Positions 7,489 to 16,236 of a stretch of 64,000 nucleotides of DNA are shown here, one piece after another; position 1 is the first letter of the stretch, and each line of letters opens with the position of its first letter. Below the pieces are notes generated by a model. That model was not told where the DNA came from, did not search any database, and saw nothing but the letters and a program-made list of their open reading frames with translations. This stretch comes from Thermonema rossianum DSM 10300 (lineage in GTDB: Bacteria; Bacteroidota; Bacteroidia; Cytophagales; Thermonemataceae), in contig NZ_AUGC01000005.1 in the NCBI RefSeq assembly GCF_000426825.1, positions 1-64,000 of the forward strand, read 5' to 3'. Made by a program: the position numbers and the translations under genes.

Positions 7489-10443
7489 TTAATGAATGAT
7501 ATTGCGGCTTTTCAAAACTTGAACAATAGCCTGATAAAGGATGGGATGCAGGTGATAATATCCGTCGGGGCGTTGCAATACGATGCCGTCATCCATCAGT
7601 AGCAGCAGCAAAGTGTTGATTTCGCCGGCAGGCAGGCGCAAACAGCGGGCAAGCGTATCGCGATGGGCAGCCCCATGCAACAACAAAGCACGCATGACCA
7701 GAAGCTTTTGCATGCTTTGCTCTTTCAAAAACGAAAAGTGAATGCCTTTGAGCGAGGTGATATAAATAGCTTGGTCGTCGAACTGCTCGATGGCATTAAT
7801 CCACAGCAACTGTGCTATGCGCAGATTCCCTTGTATAATGTTTTGAAGATCTTTAAAAAATTCATCCTTGAGCAGCGCTTGTTGCGCTTCGTGGTCAAGA
7901 TTTTGAAACTTGCGACTCTGTTTTTCTACTGCTGAACTTTGGTAGCGCAGCTCGTAGCCGCTGATTTGGTGTTTTTGAAGAATCAATTTCTCTATTTCAT
8001 CTTTCTTGAAAGCACGAAGATGAATGGGCGGGTAAGCCAAAAAGTCATTGACCTGCTTGGTTTTTTGCAAGTACTGCCAGCTGTAATCATGACAAGAGCC
8101 TATCCAGAAAACATTGCTGTTGGTTTGCGACATGATTTTGAGCTGCAACAATATGACTTCGAAACCGGTTACTTGCCTTGTGAACAAAAATTCCATGTTT
8201 TCGACGATAATACAGCAGCGAGGTGCTTGCATGAGTGCCCGGCAAAGTGCTTCCGGCGTGTCTTCTTCAATCGATAGCCCCGGCAGTGTTTTGTATGCAT
8301 GAATCAACTCAATGGGGTGTTCTATGCGCTGCTGCAAGTCCAGTACGTGTACCGGCAGGTTTGAAGGCAGAATGTTGGCTTTTACGTAATTAAGGAAGGT
8401 GGTTTTGCCATTGCCGGCTTCCGCAGTGACAACGATGGGGGCAAAGCCGCCTTTCTGCCAGTTGTCAAATGCTTTTTTTACTTGCGATTCAGCTTCGGGG
8501 CGGGCTATGTAAAAGCGCCAGTTGTCCAGTGGTTGAGGCTCGAACAACTTGCGGTAGATAAAAGGAAGCGACTGCACACGTGCCGAAGCGGTTGCCAAAA
8601 AATCGGCAATGGGGATCTCCAGCAAGAGGGGGTTGTCTAAAAGCCCCAGGCGAATGGCTATTTTGTGGTAATACTCGATGACTTTGGTTTTGCCGGTTCG
8701 CCAAGCGGCCAGCAGATGGGCAGGCAGGTGCACAAGAAAATCCCATGCTTGTTGGCGGTAGTGGCGCAGACGCTCGCGGGCTTGGGCTTTGCGGATACGC
8801 AACTGCAAGCCCAGCAGGCGATCTATTTGCTCCATCTCCAGCAGGCGTTCCACGAAGCGCCTGTCTGCTTCTTGCAGCTTGTTTTGTGCCGCCCCTACTA
8901 TCTGTTGAAAATCCATGCCGGCTTGGCGTATTTGCTCGGCGGCACGCTGCAAAGCGCCCGTCAGTACATCCTTTGCCGATACTTCTTCTTTTTCGTTTTG
9001 TAGCCGTTCGGTAACGGTATGAAAGTTGAACAGCACGGCCTCCCAGTTTTGAAGCAGGCGGCTTTCTACTTTGGTAAGCGCGCGTGCCAGCTCTGTTTTG
9101 ACTTCTTTGAGTGCTTTACGGTAGGCCGGCAGGCTTTCATGTTGTATCAGTTGGTTGAGATTCACAAAACTAACTTTCTTGGCAATACCCCGCCGGAAGT
9201 TGATTTGTGGTATGAGGGGGCGAAAGAGTGTCTGTTTTTTAAAGAAATCATCCAGGTACAGTTCGTAGGCAGTGAGTTGTTCGCCGGGCTTGTGTGTGTC
9301 GAGCAATTGGCGGAGGCGTGATTCCATGTTTTGCCTTTCCGTTTGCAGGCGCACAAGCCATTCGTTGATAGCTTGTGGGCTTGTTGTTTGCTGCGTGCTG
9401 ATTTCTTGCTCCAGCGCATGCATGAACGTGCAACTGCCTTCTATGCTTGTTTGGGCAAGGGCTTGCCGGAGCGCCTGCCAATGGTCAAGCAAATGGGCTT
9501 CCTGAAGCTTTATTTCGCAACTTATTTTAATGAGCGACTCATGTGTGCGCCAGTCGGAAAGCAGGGCAGTGGCAAGTCTGTTGTGGGGCAAGAGTGTTTT
9601 GCGGTAACGCTTATCCAGCCGGCGTTGCTTTCGCCGGAGGGCTGCTGTCCGGAAGCGCCGGTTCGAAAGCTCCCAAGTGCCTGCTTTGGCATACAAATCT
9701 TCGGCGAGGGTGCTGTGTTGCCGGAGCAGCTCTTGAGTGATATATTCGCTTTGCCGTTTGGCAAAGACATTTAGTGCTTCCAAAAGGGTCGCTACGTCTT
9801 CGGATGAATGGCCGCCGGTGAGCGGAAACAGTGCCTTGCTTTTGTCTATGCTCAATTGCTTGACAGCGGCAAACTGTTGATTCATCAGCTGAAACCACTC
9901 CACATAAATGGGCAAGAGCGCCTGCGGTAGTTGGTAGAGGCACACATGAGCAGCAATGCCACGAAGGGCAGTGCGCTGACGGCCATAGCCGATGCTTTGT
10001 TTTTGTTTGCGGAACAAATTGGCAATGCGTCGCGGCAAGCGGCTTAGCTGCCATCCGGTGCGCTTGAGTGGTTTTATGAGGTAAGCTATTGCGGGGTCGC
10101 CTGCTTGCACATAATAGCGCTCCCGTGCTTGGGTGTGCTCTACCATTTCGGGCAGTGTCAAAAGAACACTTTCCACGCGTTGTACATAAGCTTGCCGATC
10201 CCGGGAAAAAAACAACTGTTGCCGCTTCAGCCGCCGTTCTGTTTGTTGTATCAAACGGGCAAAGGCTTCTTTCTGCGTTTGCAGCTCTTTGTAGGTGGGT
10301 GCCGGAGTCCGGAGCAAGTGTTGCACTTGTTTCAAAAATTGTTCATGAGCTTCGATTTCGCCGTGCAACGTCTTGAAGGCATACTCATGAGCAGCAGAGA
10401 CGGCTTGTTTGAGTTGTGAGGTATGTTTATTGCCTTGATCCAT
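7489..10443 (-). CDS. Large helical P-loop ATPase encoded with MscS
   Basis: A 984-residue protein. Residues 1 to about 620 are mostly charged helix with many Gln, Arg and Glu, with no clear membrane segment. A nucleotide-binding domain follows: Walker A AEAGNGKTT at 674-682 and a Walker B-like CCIIVEN near 743-749 that ends in Glu rather than Asp. A later IGSC motif is a possible sensor. The C-terminal 100 residues look like winged helix (RLPAGEINTLLLLLMDDGIVLQRPDGYYHLHP). This layout resembles AAA-16/STAND-type ATPases, which often work as switches. I recognise no named family for the N-terminal part. It lies directly upstream of the MscS gene with a two-base gap. A role in sensing envelope stress is a guess. 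Confidence 0.75.
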   Translation of the reverse strand: MDQGNKHTSQLKQAVSAAHEYAFKTLHGEIEAHEQFLKQVQHLLRTPAPTYKELQTQKEAFARLIQQTERRLKRQQLFFSRDRQAYVQRVESVLLTLPEMVEHTQARERYYVQAGDPAIAYLIKPLKRTGWQLSRLPRRIANLFRKQKQSIGYGRQRTALRGIAAHVCLYQLPQALLPIYVEWFQLMNQQFAAVKQLSIDKSKALFPLTGGHSSEDVATLLEALNVFAKRQSEYITQELLRQHSTLAEDLYAKAGTWELSNRRFRTAALRRKQRRLDKRYRKTLLPHNRLATALLSDWRTHESLIKISCEIKLQEAHLLDHWQALRQALAQTSIEGSCTFMHALEQEISTQQTTSPQAINEWLVRLQTERQNMESRLRQLLDTHKPGEQLTAYELYLDDFFKKQTLFRPLIPQINFRRGIAKKVSFVNLNQLIQHESLPAYRKALKEVKTELARALTKVESRLLQNWEAVLFNFHTVTERLQNEKEEVSAKDVLTGALQRAAEQIRQAGMDFQQIVGAAQNKLQEADRRFVERLLEMEQIDRLLGLQLRIRKAQARERLRHYRQQAWDFLVHLPAHLLAAWRTGKTKVIEYYHKIAIRLGLLDNPLLLEIPIADFLATASARVQSLPFIYRKLFEPQPLDNWRFYIARPEAESQVKKAFDNWQKGGFAPIVVTAEAGNGKTTFLNYVKANILPSNLPVHVLDLQQRIEHPIELIHAYKTLPGLSIEEDTPEALCRALMQAPRCCIIVENMEFLFTRQVTGFEVILLQLKIMSQTNSNVFWIGSCHDYSWQYLQKTKQVNDFLAYPPIHLRAFKKDEIEKLILQKHQISGYELRYQSSAVEKQSRKFQNLDHEAQQALLKDEFFKDLQNIIQGNLRIAQLLWINAIEQFDDQAIYITSLKGIHFSFLKEQSMQKLLVMRALLLHGAAHRDTLARCLRLPAGEINTLLLLLMDDGIVLQRPDGYYHLHPILYQAIVQVLKSRNIIH

Positions 10444-11921: not shown

Positions 11922-13178
11922 TTATGGCTCAAAGCGGAAGCCGAGCACCGTCACATCATCCACCTGCGGAAGACTACCTTTCCATTCGTCAAAAGTGTGG
12001 GCAAGGCGCTCGGCTTGCATGGCAAAGGGTTGCCGGTGAATCTCTTCGATGAGGTTAACAAGGTTTTTGCTGTAGAAACGCTTGCCCGACTCACCGCCAA
12101 ACTGGTCTTGAAAGCCGTCGGTGTAGAGGTAAATATGCATGGGCTCATATGGCAGGTTTATTTCTTCGAAAGAGGCTTCTTCCTGCTCATATCCACCGAT
12201 GGCTTGCCGGCTGCCTTTCAACACTTCCACCTCGCCTCTGCGAATGATGAGGGCGCCCAGATTGCCGCCTGCCAGGCTTATTTTTTGTGCCTTGCGGTCA
12301 ATACACAGCACTACGGCGTCCATACCGTCGCGTGAGACGGTTTCTTCTTGTCGCAGCCTTTCTATGATACCTTGGTTAATGAAAGAAAGGATTTGACCGG
12401 GCGCATGAATTTCACGGTCGTGTACCGCCTGGGCAATTAGGTTGACCCCCACCATGCTCATCATGGCACCGGGCACACCGTGTCCCGTGCAGTCGGCCAC
12501 CACCACAATGGTCTTGTCTTCCCCATTTTCGGTTTTATGGGCTACCCAGTAGAAGTCGCCGGATACGATGTCGCGGGGGCGGTAAAAAAGCACATGCTCG
12601 CCAATGGTTTCCTGCAATTCCTGCTTGGAAGGAAGCATGGCTTCCTGTATGCGCTGGGCATAGCGTATGCTGCTTTGCACCTTTGCAAGCAACTGCTCTA
12701 CTTCGGCGGTGCGCTCACGCACTTTCTCTTCGAGCGAGGTGTTCAGTTGGCGCAGCTCCTCAATAAGGCGCTCGCGTTCGTCGCGCAGGCGCAAGGTTTC
12801 AATGGCTTTTTCGATGATCATCTCCAGCTCGCCGCGGTCCCATGGCTTGGTAATGTACTGGTATATACCACTTTTGTTGACTGCCCGCACGATGGCCTCT
12901 ATGTCGGCAAAGCCGGTTAATATCATGCGAATGAGGTTGGGATAGCGCTCTACGGTGTATTCGAGCAACTCCACGCCGGACATCTGCGGCATCTTGTAGT
13001 CGGTAATCAATATATGAATCGGATGTTCTTTGAGGATGTCGATGGCTTCCTGGGCTGAGGTGGCCGTATGCACCGTGTACTTACGCTTGAAAGCAGTTTT
13101 GAAAATACGCAGGTTGCTCTCTTCGTCGTCCACGTATAAAATATGGATGTCTTTATGCTTGTTTCTGTCTTCTTGCAT
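11922..13178 (-). CDS. Response regulator with SpoIIE-type PP2C phosphatase output
   Basis: A 418-residue protein. The receiver domain (about 11-120) has acidic pair Asp17-Asp18, phospho-acceptor Asp60 in LITDYKMP and Lys111 in TKPWD. A coiled coil (about 122-175) leads to a PP2C/SpoIIE domain (about 190-415, with GDFYW, ADCTGHGVPGAMMS and YTDGFQD metal-binding motifs). Phosphorylation would tune a serine/threonine phosphatase, as in RsbU-like partner switching; no anti-sigma or antagonist gene is adjacent, so the target is unknown. It is the last gene of the CZB-kinase-H-NOX operon, 18 bp after H-NOX, and is the natural acceptor for the kinase encoded at 13763-15730. Confidence 0.93.
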   Translation of the reverse strand: MQEDRNKHKDIHILYVDDEESNLRIFKTAFKRKYTVHTATSAQEAIDILKEHPIHILITDYKMPQMSGVELLEYTVERYPNLIRMILTGFADIEAIVRAVNKSGIYQYITKPWDRGELEMIIEKAIETLRLRDERERLIEELRQLNTSLEEKVRERTAEVEQLLAKVQSSIRYAQRIQEAMLPSKQELQETIGEHVLFYRPRDIVSGDFYWVAHKTENGEDKTIVVVADCTGHGVPGAMMSMVGVNLIAQAVHDREIHAPGQILSFINQGIIERLRQEETVSRDGMDAVVLCIDRKAQKISLAGGNLGALIIRRGEVEVLKGSRQAIGGYEQEEASFEEINLPYEPMHIYLYTDGFQDQFGGESGKRFYSKNLVNLIEEIHRQPFAMQAERLAHTFDEWKGSLPQVDDVTVLGFRFEP

Positions 13179-13196
13179 AGCTCTTTAAAAACTTCT

Positions 13197-13730
13197 TTAT
13201 TGTTCGTGAAAAGTGAGTCGAAGGTGTTCGTTGTCGATTTTTTCGACGCTTGTATGGTTGTTGAAATACTTATCCAAGCCTTTGATTAAAGAAATAAGCA
13301 GGTCTATCAGCCCACGGCTTGATTGATAATGAAGCAGCAGGACATTATCGGATTCCCACCGGTATTGAAAGCGGGGTGGATGCGCATTGGGAATGCGCTT
13401 GGTTACGATGTCGTGAATGAAGTCCAGCTTTGTGATGAAGTCTTTGGTACTTTTAGGACCTATAAACAAAGCTTTGTACACTTTGGGGGCATAATGCAGG
13501 CACCAATATTCGCCAAAGTCATCGAAGATTTGCTGGAGTGATACGCCACATACCTCAGCGCTTTTGACAAAGAGCTGTACACTGAGTTGCTCGTCTATGT
13601 CTTTATCGATTTCCAATGCAAAGTGGTGGGTTGCCGGCAGGTCGCAGCGGCGAAGCACCTCTTGCCAGTTTGCTTGTCCGTATTTCTTTGCTATGGTTTC
13701 TTCTAAGCAGGTTAAAATAGTTCCTTTCAT
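13197..13730 (-). CDS. H-NOX haem nitric-oxide sensor protein
   Basis: A 177-residue stand-alone H-NOX domain opening with MKGTILTCLEE, typical of the family. The proximal haem ligand is His106 in LDFIH, and the haem-propionate motif YxSxR is Tyr135, Ser137, Arg139. The position five residues after that Arg, where oxygen-binding H-NOX carry Tyr, is Leu144, which suggests an NO-selective sensor. In known systems such H-NOX proteins control a histidine kinase encoded beside them. Here the kinase gene ends 32 bp upstream and the response regulator starts 18 bp downstream. NO would thus regulate phosphate flow to the receiver-SpoIIE phosphatase. Domain call firm; ligand preference inferred. Confidence 0.93.
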   Translation of the reverse strand: MKGTILTCLEETIAKKYGQANWQEVLRRCDLPATHHFALEIDKDIDEQLSVQLFVKSAEVCGVSLQQIFDDFGEYWCLHYAPKVYKALFIGPKSTKDFITKLDFIHDIVTKRIPNAHPPRFQYRWESDNVLLLHYQSSRGLIDLLISLIKGLDKYFNNHTSVEKIDNEHLRLTFHEQ

Positions 13731-13762
13731 CGTAGTAGAATTTTATGGTTTTTTGGGGTACT

Positions 13763-15730
13763 TCACACTTCATGCTTGGGCAGAACAATGATAAACTCGG
13801 TTCCTTTGCCTACTTCGCTGTGTACTTCTATTTGTCCGCCGTGTTTGTCTATAATGGAATGCACGATGGCCAGCCCCAAGCCGGTGCCCACACCTACGGG
13901 CTTGGTGGTAAAGAAGGGCTCGAAGATGCGCTGCAGCTTGTCCTCGGGGATGCCCACACCGTTGTCTTTGATGCGAATGACGACGTTTTCTTGTTTGTCT
14001 TCGGTGTAAATTTCTATTTTGCCGTCAGTGCGCTCTTCGGGAATTGCCTGAATGGCATTGCTTATCAGGTTCATGAATACCTGGTTGAGCTGCCCGGGAT
14101 AGTGGGCAAATGGTTTTAACTCAGGGTCGTAATACTTTTTGATTTCAATGCGGTTTTTGTATTTGTTTTGCAGCAAAATGAGGGTAGAGTCGATGCCCTC
14201 GTGGATGTCGGCTACTTTGCGCTCCTCTTCGTCGAGGCGGGAGAAGGTGCGCAGCCCTTTCACTATTTCCATGGTACGGCTGGCGCCTTTGGCTATGTCG
14301 CCCACCAGCGCATGAATATCTTCTTTCACTTCTTCGAAGTCTATTTCTTCTTTCAGGGCTTCTACCTTTTCAAGCTGAGCCAGCAGTTGTTGATAATCGG
14401 CTTTGAGCGGATGCAGGGCTTCGTAAGCATCAACTACTTCAAACATATCCTGCAGCAGCATACGCAGTGTGTCGATACCATTGTACACGAAGTTGATGGG
14501 ATTGTTGATTTCATGGGCGATGCCGGCCGTGAGTACACCCAAAGATGCCATCTTTTCCGATTGAATAAGTTTGGTTTGCGCCTCTTGCAGCTGTTTGACC
14601 AGCACTTCCAGCTTTTGCTTGGTTTCTTGCTCTTCCTTCAGGGCCCGCTCCAGCTCTTCCCGGGTTTTGAGCAGCTGCTCACTTTGCTCGAGTGTTTGCA
14701 TGAGTAGCTCGCGCATCTGCTCCTCGTTTTCCTCCAGTAGTTTTTTGCTTTCTTGCTCTTTTTTCAACAAAGACTCCAGTTCTTCCCGGGTTTTGAGCAG
14801 CTCTTCACTTTGGGCAAGCGTTTGCTCCAGCAGCTCGCGCATCTGTTCCTCGCTTTCTTTGATGCGCTGGTTATACAAGTGCTGCTCGGTAATATCTTGA
14901 ATGACGCCGCCCCCTGTAATCACCCCCGTTTGCGGATTCCGCTTGGCATAAGCCGTAGTGCGTGTATAGCGTATGTCGCCTGTGTCGGCACGCCGCACGC
15001 GGAATTCAACGGTGTCTTCAAACTCGTCGGAGTTGAGTGCCGCTGACAGCTTTTCAAGCACGTGGGCATGGTCCTCGGGCAGCACGAAGCGCTGCATCCA
15101 TTGCATGAAATTGAAACGGTAGCCGCCTTCTGCCTCGGCGTTCGTGCCCAATATTTGATAATATTCGTCGGTAAGCGTGAGATAGGCTTCTTCGCCTTTT
15201 GCTTCGAAGGACCAAGCCCCCAGCTTGCCAATGGCAAATGCTTCTTTCAATTGTCGTTGTGTGCGGTACAACTCCTCGCCGGCTGCCAATTGCTCATCCA
15301 TGAGTTGCAGCAGCTGCTGTTCCGATTCCTGCAGTTTGCGGTTCTTTTCTTCAAGTTCTTGCCGGGCAAGCAACAGTTTTTCGGTAGTCTCCAGCTGTTT
15401 TTGCAAGGCAGTGCGCATCTGTTCTTCGGTTTCTTTCAGACGCCGGTTTTGCGACTCTATCTCCGCCACTTGTCTTTCGATGGTGTTAACTACCGGACGA
15501 AAGAAGCCATAGGCCAAGAAGGGCAGCACTGCCAGTATCATAAGCCCTACGCCGTAGGTGGCAACGCGCAAAGTGTAAAGCTGATCGCTTGGCTCGATGC
15601 CTTGCGCCAGCAGGGTGGCCTCCAGGTCGTTTACAGTGACTTGGGTAATGACTTCCGCCAAAAGAACCAGACCGGCAATAACATACAGGGCTGTTTTGTA
15701 GGTGTTTCTCAGGTTGGTGTATCTGTTCAT
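13763..15730 (-). CDS. PAS-containing membrane histidine kinase (H-NOX partner)
   Basis: A 655-residue kinase with two membrane segments (about 13-33 and 53-75) enclosing a short outer loop. Coiled coil (82-165), one PAS domain with PAC end (about 165-283), and a second long coiled coil built from a 42-residue tandem repeat (starting at 294 and 336, EEQMREL then SEELLKTREELE) follow. HisKA has phospho-acceptor His406 (AGIAHEINNP); the ATPase domain has an N box (554-560), DNGVG at 589-593 and GTGLGLAI at 615-622. The sensing loop is small, so signals probably come from H-NOX and the CZB protein encoded on either side (gaps of 32 and 22 bp) and from PAS. Its likely target is the receiver-SpoIIE protein. 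Confidence 0.92.
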   Translation of the reverse strand: MNRYTNLRNTYKTALYVIAGLVLLAEVITQVTVNDLEATLLAQGIEPSDQLYTLRVATYGVGLMILAVLPFLAYGFFRPVVNTIERQVAEIESQNRRLKETEEQMRTALQKQLETTEKLLLARQELEEKNRKLQESEQQLLQLMDEQLAAGEELYRTQRQLKEAFAIGKLGAWSFEAKGEEAYLTLTDEYYQILGTNAEAEGGYRFNFMQWMQRFVLPEDHAHVLEKLSAALNSDEFEDTVEFRVRRADTGDIRYTRTTAYAKRNPQTGVITGGGVIQDITEQHLYNQRIKESEEQMRELLEQTLAQSEELLKTREELESLLKKEQESKKLLEENEEQMRELLMQTLEQSEQLLKTREELERALKEEQETKQKLEVLVKQLQEAQTKLIQSEKMASLGVLTAGIAHEINNPINFVYNGIDTLRMLLQDMFEVVDAYEALHPLKADYQQLLAQLEKVEALKEEIDFEEVKEDIHALVGDIAKGASRTMEIVKGLRTFSRLDEEERKVADIHEGIDSTLILLQNKYKNRIEIKKYYDPELKPFAHYPGQLNQVFMNLISNAIQAIPEERTDGKIEIYTEDKQENVVIRIKDNGVGIPEDKLQRIFEPFFTTKPVGVGTGLGLAIVHSIIDKHGGQIEVHSEVGKGTEFIIVLPKHEV

Positions 15731-15752
15731 ATTGTTTGTCTTGGGTTTATTT

Positions 15753-16064
15753 TTACAGCGATGCTTCTACTTGTTTGTCAAGTGCTTCGAGTGTTTGGAT
15801 TAGTTTTTCAGATAATTGCTTCATTTTTTCATACTCTGCCCCGGCTTCGTGCAGCTGCTTGTGTATTTCTTCCAGCTGCTGCATGTCCTTCAGCTGTCCG
15901 TATTTTTCCATTCCTTGCGCGTAAATCCATTTCCCGAGGCGGCAGTCTGTGTGAGAGAGCACTTCTTCATGGCTAAGGCTCTCTTTGCCTTCCAGGTAGT
16001 TGAGCAGCCTGATACGCCAGTTGATATGATTGGCTTTGGCTGTTAAAAAGTCTATGTTGCGCAT
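15753..16064 (-). CDS. CZB (chemoreceptor zinc-binding) domain protein
   Basis: A 103-residue soluble protein consisting only of a CZB domain. The zinc ligands are visible: His13 (in ANHINW), Cys41 in CRLGKWIYAQG, and His68 and His72 in EIHKQLH. CZB domains are normally attached to chemoreceptors or diguanylate cyclases, where zinc loss or Cys oxidation (for example by hypochlorous acid) switches activity. Here the domain stands alone as first gene of an operon with a kinase, H-NOX and receiver-phosphatase. It may act in trans on the kinase. The divergent subtilase gene starts 217 bp away. Confidence 0.88.
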   Translation of the reverse strand: MRNIDFLTAKANHINWRIRLLNYLEGKESLSHEEVLSHTDCRLGKWIYAQGMEKYGQLKDMQQLEEIHKQLHEAGAEYEKMKQLSEKLIQTLEALDKQVEASL

Positions 16065-16236
16065 AGTTTGAAATATTTTACGGTTTAAAAATATGTATAT
16101 TTCTTCTCACAGTTTGTTTCTTTCGACGAAAGAAATGCTATGTAAGACCAATAACCATTGTGAAACGATAAAAGTGTCAACGTCAATAAAGGAGTGTACT
16201 AAAAAACCGGTGGAGTCGTTTTGTTATGAAAATAGC

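Follow-up and report, generated by a model that had tools for sequence, protein, structure and literature searches.

The window, by which we mean the whole 64,000-nucleotide stretch of Thermonema rossianum DNA analysed here, contains a genuine four-gene operon that looks intact from its sequence. It encodes a chemoreceptor zinc-binding (CZB) protein, a sensor histidine kinase, an H-NOX haem protein and a response regulator carrying a SpoIIE/PP2C phosphatase. We estimate the probability at roughly 0.55 that the CZB and H-NOX proteins are two accessory sensors recruited by one kinase, which would control the PP2C phosphatase. This reading is favoured by the close spacing of the four genes and the intact functional residues of every product, by H-NOX genes adjoining SpoIIE genes at four other loci, and by CZB adjoining or fused to kinases elsewhere.

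All four genes are located on the minus strand in the order CZB, kinase, H-NOX and receiver-SpoIIE, with intergenic gaps of 22, 32 and 18 bases, bearing out the original prediction of a four-gene operon with gaps of 18-32 bases; Pfam supports each product. The CZB protein is free-standing and 103 aa long (15753-16064; identified by Pfam and ligand conservation). It is followed by the 655-aa kinase (13763-15730; Pfam, a 78% identical sister orthologue, and relatives beside the same phosphatase in genomes G083 and G111), the 177-aa H-NOX (HNOB) protein (13197-13730; Pfam, matches to H-NOX proteins in the PDB, invariant residues and tree) and the 418-aa regulator, which consists of a receiver, a coil and a SpoIIE/PP2C phosphatase (11922-13178; Pfam and alignment with three orthologues). 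A divergent subtilase gene flanks the operon upstream and a Sua5-type gene downstream. The 2.95-Mb assembly that holds the window contains one HNOB match and one CZB match in total.

A perfect 9-bp inverted repeat (19 bp, 16117-16135, no strand assigned), a putative operator, lies upstream of CZB. No other exact copy exists in the genome, and when the 217-bp gap upstream of CZB was shuffled 1000 times, an equally good repeat arose 7 times. At up to three mismatches, the pattern was found at 6 genome sites versus 21 for a reversed-pattern control, and the repeat was therefore rejected as the operator of a genome-wide regulon. Elsewhere in the window, a 984-aa protein (7489-10443) gave AAA/STAND NTPase matches that were all below cut-off and is possibly an undescribed P-loop NTPase.

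The CZB protein matched Pfam CZB at 56.5 bits (cut-off 29.4; E = 3.5e-15). As predicted, all four zinc ligands are present, H13, C41, H68 and H72 forming a predicted 3-His 1-Cys site. Among 37 CZB rows, with the window counted twice and open reading frames (ORFs) of at least 220 aa dropped, H13, H68 and H72 were conserved in 37/37 and C41 in 35/37. The H-NOX protein matched Pfam HNOB at 120.3 bits (cut-off 25.5; E = 1e-34) and was matched by solved H-NOX proteins in the PDB (best E = 1.8e-16); its His106 aligns with the conserved His of the solved Alr2278 H-NOX. H106, P119, Y135, S137 and R139 were invariant in all 44 H-NOX rows compared, confirming the predicted His106 and Y135-x-S137-x-R139. 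The further claim of a Leu at the oxygen-tyrosine position holds for the residue: residue 144 is Leu, as in 15 of the 16 rows of its clade. The position itself (Arg+5) is the presumed oxygen-tyrosine position.

The kinase consists of a hydrophobic N-terminus, a coil, a PAS domain, a repeated coil, HisKA and HATPase_c. The N-terminus contains two hydrophobic stretches, taken by eye as two helices. HATPase_c scored 103.5 bits (E = 1.2e-29), PAS_3 fell just below its cut-off (24.9 versus 25.6 bits), and HisKA was also below cut-off. No HNOBA match was detected in the kinase by Pfam at E up to 1; HNOBA was present in 4 of 8 H-NOX-adjacent kinases tested and hence is not universal. Residues 294-377 comprise a 42-residue coil unit (six heptads) repeated twice in tandem, with 93 of 126 bases identical. 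One such unit is missing from the sister kinase; the coils of the sensor-bearing and the sensor-less species therefore differ by an integral number of heptads. A signalling helix of roughly 40 residues, positioned between sensor and kinase, is described in the accessible text of PMC1592074.

The regulator matched Response_reg (78.1 bits, E = 7.4e-22) and SpoIIE (74.6 bits, E = 1.3e-20), both above cut-off. It is 86% identical to the sister protein and 50% and 48% identical to those of G083 and G111, respectively, and D60, K111, D208, D229, D354 and D407/D408 are invariant in 4/4 orthologues (window, sister, G083 and G111). It has a receiver with the Asp and Lys and a SpoIIE domain with Asp residues, as expected of the receiver-SpoIIE class; which of the SpoIIE aspartates bind metal is an assignment that we presume. 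Two named identities were rejected. SiaA, the best NCBIfam match of the phosphatase half, reached 200.5 bits against a cut-off of 700, and NosR reached 179.3 bits against 400, covering the receiver and coil only.

The kinase-phosphatase pair is an old conserved core. Two genomes are available for the genus, and in the only other one (G041, 98% complete; the sister) the subtilase (86%), kinase (78%), receiver-SpoIIE (86%) and Sua5 (76%) genes are syntenic with those of the window. Neither CZB nor H-NOX was found between these neighbours, and both families are absent from the whole sister assembly. Kinase and receiver-SpoIIE genes also lie side by side in G083 and G111, from two more genera of the family. 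The core thus does not need the sensors, as it persists in the sister in their absence.

The 128-base gap between the sister's kinase and regulator genes aligns to the final 20 codons of the H-NOX gene in the window, with 46 of 59 compared bases identical. None of 1000 shuffles attained the alignment score of 51 (best shuffle, 42), and when the same query was run against 436 segments of the window, the next best score was 38. Given this 59-base remnant of the H-NOX 3' end at the corresponding site, the sister most likely once had H-NOX there and then lost it. A CZB relic in the sister was rejected, because its forward alignment, which falls in the AT-rich upstream gap, was reached by 15 of 1000 shuffles and its reverse alignment by 109 of 1000; loss of CZB in the sister and later gain in the window cannot be told apart. 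Given that the sister has the bare pair plus a fragment of a lost H-NOX, the sensors look like removable plug-ins.

CZB is linked to kinases elsewhere in the order. We found 75 CZB places, with open frames no longer than 215 aa in 59 cases, above 600 aa in 15 and of 330 aa in one; the short ones were classed by open-frame length and inspected in part. The prediction that a free-standing CZB is uncommon was thus wrong; CZB-only proteins also make up 27.1% of the 10,140 CZB sequences in a published survey (PMC8262984, available portion). All 15 long proteins, from 15 genomes, are CZB-kinase fusions with CZB at the start, often with an adjoining receiver gene. The five from the first order sample (L224-L228) were all CZB-PAS-HisKA-HATPase by Pfam, the CZB of L228 scoring just below cut-off at 27.1 bits, and the ten others (L251-L260) were all CZB-kinase by profiles built in this analysis. 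At 10 of the 28 first-sample CZB places, all in one genus, a free-standing CZB gene is located 12-48 bases upstream of a CHASE3 kinase gene, as a rule with a receiver gene next (L066, L068, L070-L072, L076, L078, L079, L202 and L203). Two further loci, of another genus, have CZB-kinase, one of them with a receiver. These neighbour labels come from our own profiles, with Pfam confirmation for a subset of loci. The fusions and the recurrent CZB-kinase(-receiver) operon, a separate lineage, support a role for CZB as a histidine-kinase input in the order beyond the window. The survey, in its available portion, recognises seven groups of CZB architecture, among them chemoreceptors, cyclases, EAL, CheW and CZB-only, and has no kinase group (PMC8262984).

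In a tree of 77 columns, which is short, the window CZB grouped with six free-standing CZBs (support 90/80), and the fusion and operon lineages fell elsewhere (93/93). Those six have no kinase neighbour, indicating that the window CZB did not inherit its kinase link from either of these lineages. Other free-standing CZBs adjoin Tll0287-like haem proteins (L060 and L065) or GAF proteins (L067 and L073); CZBs of genus g255 had no kinase neighbour at the three loci fetched, and near some others nothing telling was found.

Several other arrangements of free-standing CZBs were observed. In two relatives, CZB genes lie 4-5 bases upstream of ATP synthase subunit A, at L061 (6810-8241) and L064 (6620-8061), with Pfam support at L061 only. 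At L062 (6208-9037) a CZB gene is divergent from a FIST gene, followed by SpoIIE; FIST is a domain of NosP-type NO sensors. In a different family of the phylum, free-standing CZB genes occur two or three in a row (L201, 4668-6200; L200, 1954-2850), and the last copy has Ser for the zinc Cys.

The adjacency of CZB and H-NOX is unique to the window within our samples. In a first order sample of 194 genomes, HNOB was found in 66 and CZB in 27; in a larger one of 390, CZB was found in 73, and HNOB was sought in all of these (27 from the first sample and 46 new). Both families were present in 42 of the 390 genomes (15 from the first sample and 27 of the 46 new), and coordinates placed the two side by side in one of the 42, the window alone. 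In a phylum sample of 395 genomes, CZB occurred in 44, and HNOB was found in 0 of the 41 not searched before. Neither H-NOX nor CZB was found in the DNA fetched around the 80 nearest receiver loci kept from a GTDB r220 scan, whose scope is outside the genus, since it may omit the window's own or very near genomes; 11 of the 80 loci hold a SpoIIE part. We therefore rejected CZB beside H-NOX as a conserved module. The absence of CZB from related operons had been named as evidence against the prediction, and at face value it is, no other H-NOX locus compared having CZB and the sister having the core pair with neither sensor. No description of H-NOX with CZB, or of a CZB-kinase, was found in the open-licence PMC literature, covered mostly at the level of titles and listings.

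Such rarity is what would be expected if the two small genes were chance neighbours, co-transcribed with the kinase but functionally uncoupled from it, and the sister, by doing without both sensors, shows them to be dispensable. Nevertheless, we consider this improbable, as it would require two independent sensor insertions on the same strand, tightly spaced and with functional residues all kept, and CZB before a kinase recurs elsewhere.

H-NOX contexts were compared in 40 fetched regions plus the window, out of 77 HNOB places, the regions being hand-chosen, not random. Of the 44 H-NOX rows, 19 adjoin a kinase, 4 SpoIIE and 3 a GAF protein; 3 follow lytB, 14 are lone and one is the window. In the tree of these rows (duplicates L100 and L003 and ORFs outside 150-240 aa dropped), the window protein was found not in a kinase-associated clade but in a 16-row stand-alone clade (support 99/89), in which 0 of the 15 other members lie beside a kinase. 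Hence the usual H-NOX-kinase partnership was not inherited here, and because the window kinase also lacks HNOBA, its link to H-NOX is probably a separate recruitment. In three relatives (L080-L082), H-NOX directly follows lytB/ispH and precedes a gene of 158-160 aa; the two such genes that were scanned gave no Pfam match.

The same observations could mean that only CZB feeds the kinase, the stand-alone-type H-NOX having been inserted for co-expression and acting elsewhere, by NO binding or on another partner. No other sampled member of its clade lies beside a kinase, the kinase has no HNOBA, and the order has many CZB-kinase fusions and operons. We regard this as unlikely, however, since the H-NOX gene is flanked by the kinase and regulator genes, with gaps of 32 and 18 bases, and H-NOX adjoins SpoIIE genes at four other loci in three genera. 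Two of the four, L083 (2934-4478) and L084 (5836-7376), belong to one genus and have H-NOX 8-9 bases before kinase-less SpoIIE genes; at L204 (4517-6643) H-NOX lies 63 bases before a gene for an HNOBA-SpoIIE product, and at L209 it lies 1 base after a receiver-SpoIIE gene. Where H-NOX directly precedes a kinase-less SpoIIE gene, a direct NO-to-PP2C pathway is possible. Extended to the window, where 18 bases separate H-NOX from the receiver-SpoIIE gene, this would give two separate inputs, CZB to the kinase and H-NOX, by direct contact, to the phosphatase. We find this rather less likely still: the H-NOX proteins of L083, L084, L204 and L209 belong to other tree clades than that of the window, and the window SpoIIE protein has a receiver and no HNOBA.

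We thus favour two accessory sensors acting through one kinase, although the H-NOX clade with 0 of 15 other members beside a kinase, the kinase without HNOBA, the kinase-less CZB group and the sampling of the genus by just two genomes all count against it. The predicted convergence of two inputs on one kinase with a PP2C output accordingly stands in part: the anatomy fits and CZB-kinase links occur elsewhere, but the H-NOX clade is otherwise kinase-less and the sister does without the sensors. That both sensors are inputs to the window kinase is plausible. More tentatively, and with some doubt, CZB may be a kinase input across Cytophagales, either fused or as a docking subunit; in the window, an NO-sensing H-NOX drawn from a stand-alone clade would act on the same kinase, which would integrate both signals ahead of its one PP2C output, with sensors gained and lost while the core stays.

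The favoured pathway would be a two-component system in which a membrane PAS kinase signals to a receiver-PP2C phosphatase, with two cytosolic accessory sensors added. H-NOX would bind NO and not O2, and the NO-bound form may lower kinase activity, as in characterised H-NOX/kinase pairs; inhibition of adjacent kinases by NO-bound H-NOX is reported in the accessible text of PMC8738867. CZB may dock on the kinase and report zinc occupancy or Cys oxidation. From the sections available, zinc-bound CZB inhibits DgcZ and oxidation of the CZB Cys relieves the inhibition (PMC8262984, PMC8846402); alternatively, CZBs sense how much zinc the redox state makes available (PMC13370339, a preprint available in part). 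Phosphorylation of the receiver would switch the PP2C domain, which may dephosphorylate a STAS protein and so release a sigma factor or another partner, much as SiaA acts on a STAS-type partner in Pseudomonas (PMC7647112, accessible text). A candidate target is a STAS and RsbW-like gene pair elsewhere in the genome (L248), in which the gene for a STAS protein with an ISSAGL motif overlaps the start of the RsbW-like ATPase gene. A second soluble STAS protein is encoded at L249, so the target would be one of two soluble candidates, both unlinked to the operon. Perhaps, then, a STAS/RsbW switch lies downstream of PP2C, tied to the operon by logic alone. Rising NO and a changing zinc or oxidant state would be read out jointly as one phosphatase activity.

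The result that may transfer beyond the window is CZB as a histidine-kinase input in the order, a class missing from the available portion of the published survey (PMC8262984). Many CZB proteins are CZB-only, and that portion names no partner for them; the order offers candidate kinase partners, both fused and split. The two sister species, which have the same kinase-phosphatase pair with and without H-NOX and CZB, constitute a natural experiment on the gain and loss of soluble sensor subunits.

Four known systems resemble the window operon in part, as far as the accessible text of the papers describes them. Like HnoX-HnoK with HnoB/HnoD of Shewanella and Vibrio (PMC8738867), it places an H-NOX gene next to genes for a histidine kinase and a response regulator; however, its output is a receiver-PP2C and not an EAL phosphodiesterase, no EAL/GGDEF output protein being encoded in the operon, and it adds a CZB gene, an H-NOX from a stand-alone clade and a kinase without HNOBA. 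With the CZB sensors, namely the chemoreceptors TlpD and McpA, the cyclase DgcZ and CZB-only proteins (PMC8262984, PMC13370339), it shares the 3-His 1-Cys CZB domain, whereas its CZB gene adjoins that of a histidine kinase, and none of the listed survey architectures has this output (PMC8262984). The CZB-CHASE3 kinase-receiver operon of the other genus likewise has a free-standing CZB 12-48 bases upstream of the kinase, but with a CHASE3/HAMP kinase, a receiver-only regulator, no H-NOX and a CZB of a different subclade. Finally, the SiaABC partner switch (PMC7647112) also has a SpoIIE/PP2C phosphatase with a presumed STAS-type target; in the window, by contrast, the phosphatase would be driven by a receiver rather than by a membrane sensor part, and its target would lie outside the operon.
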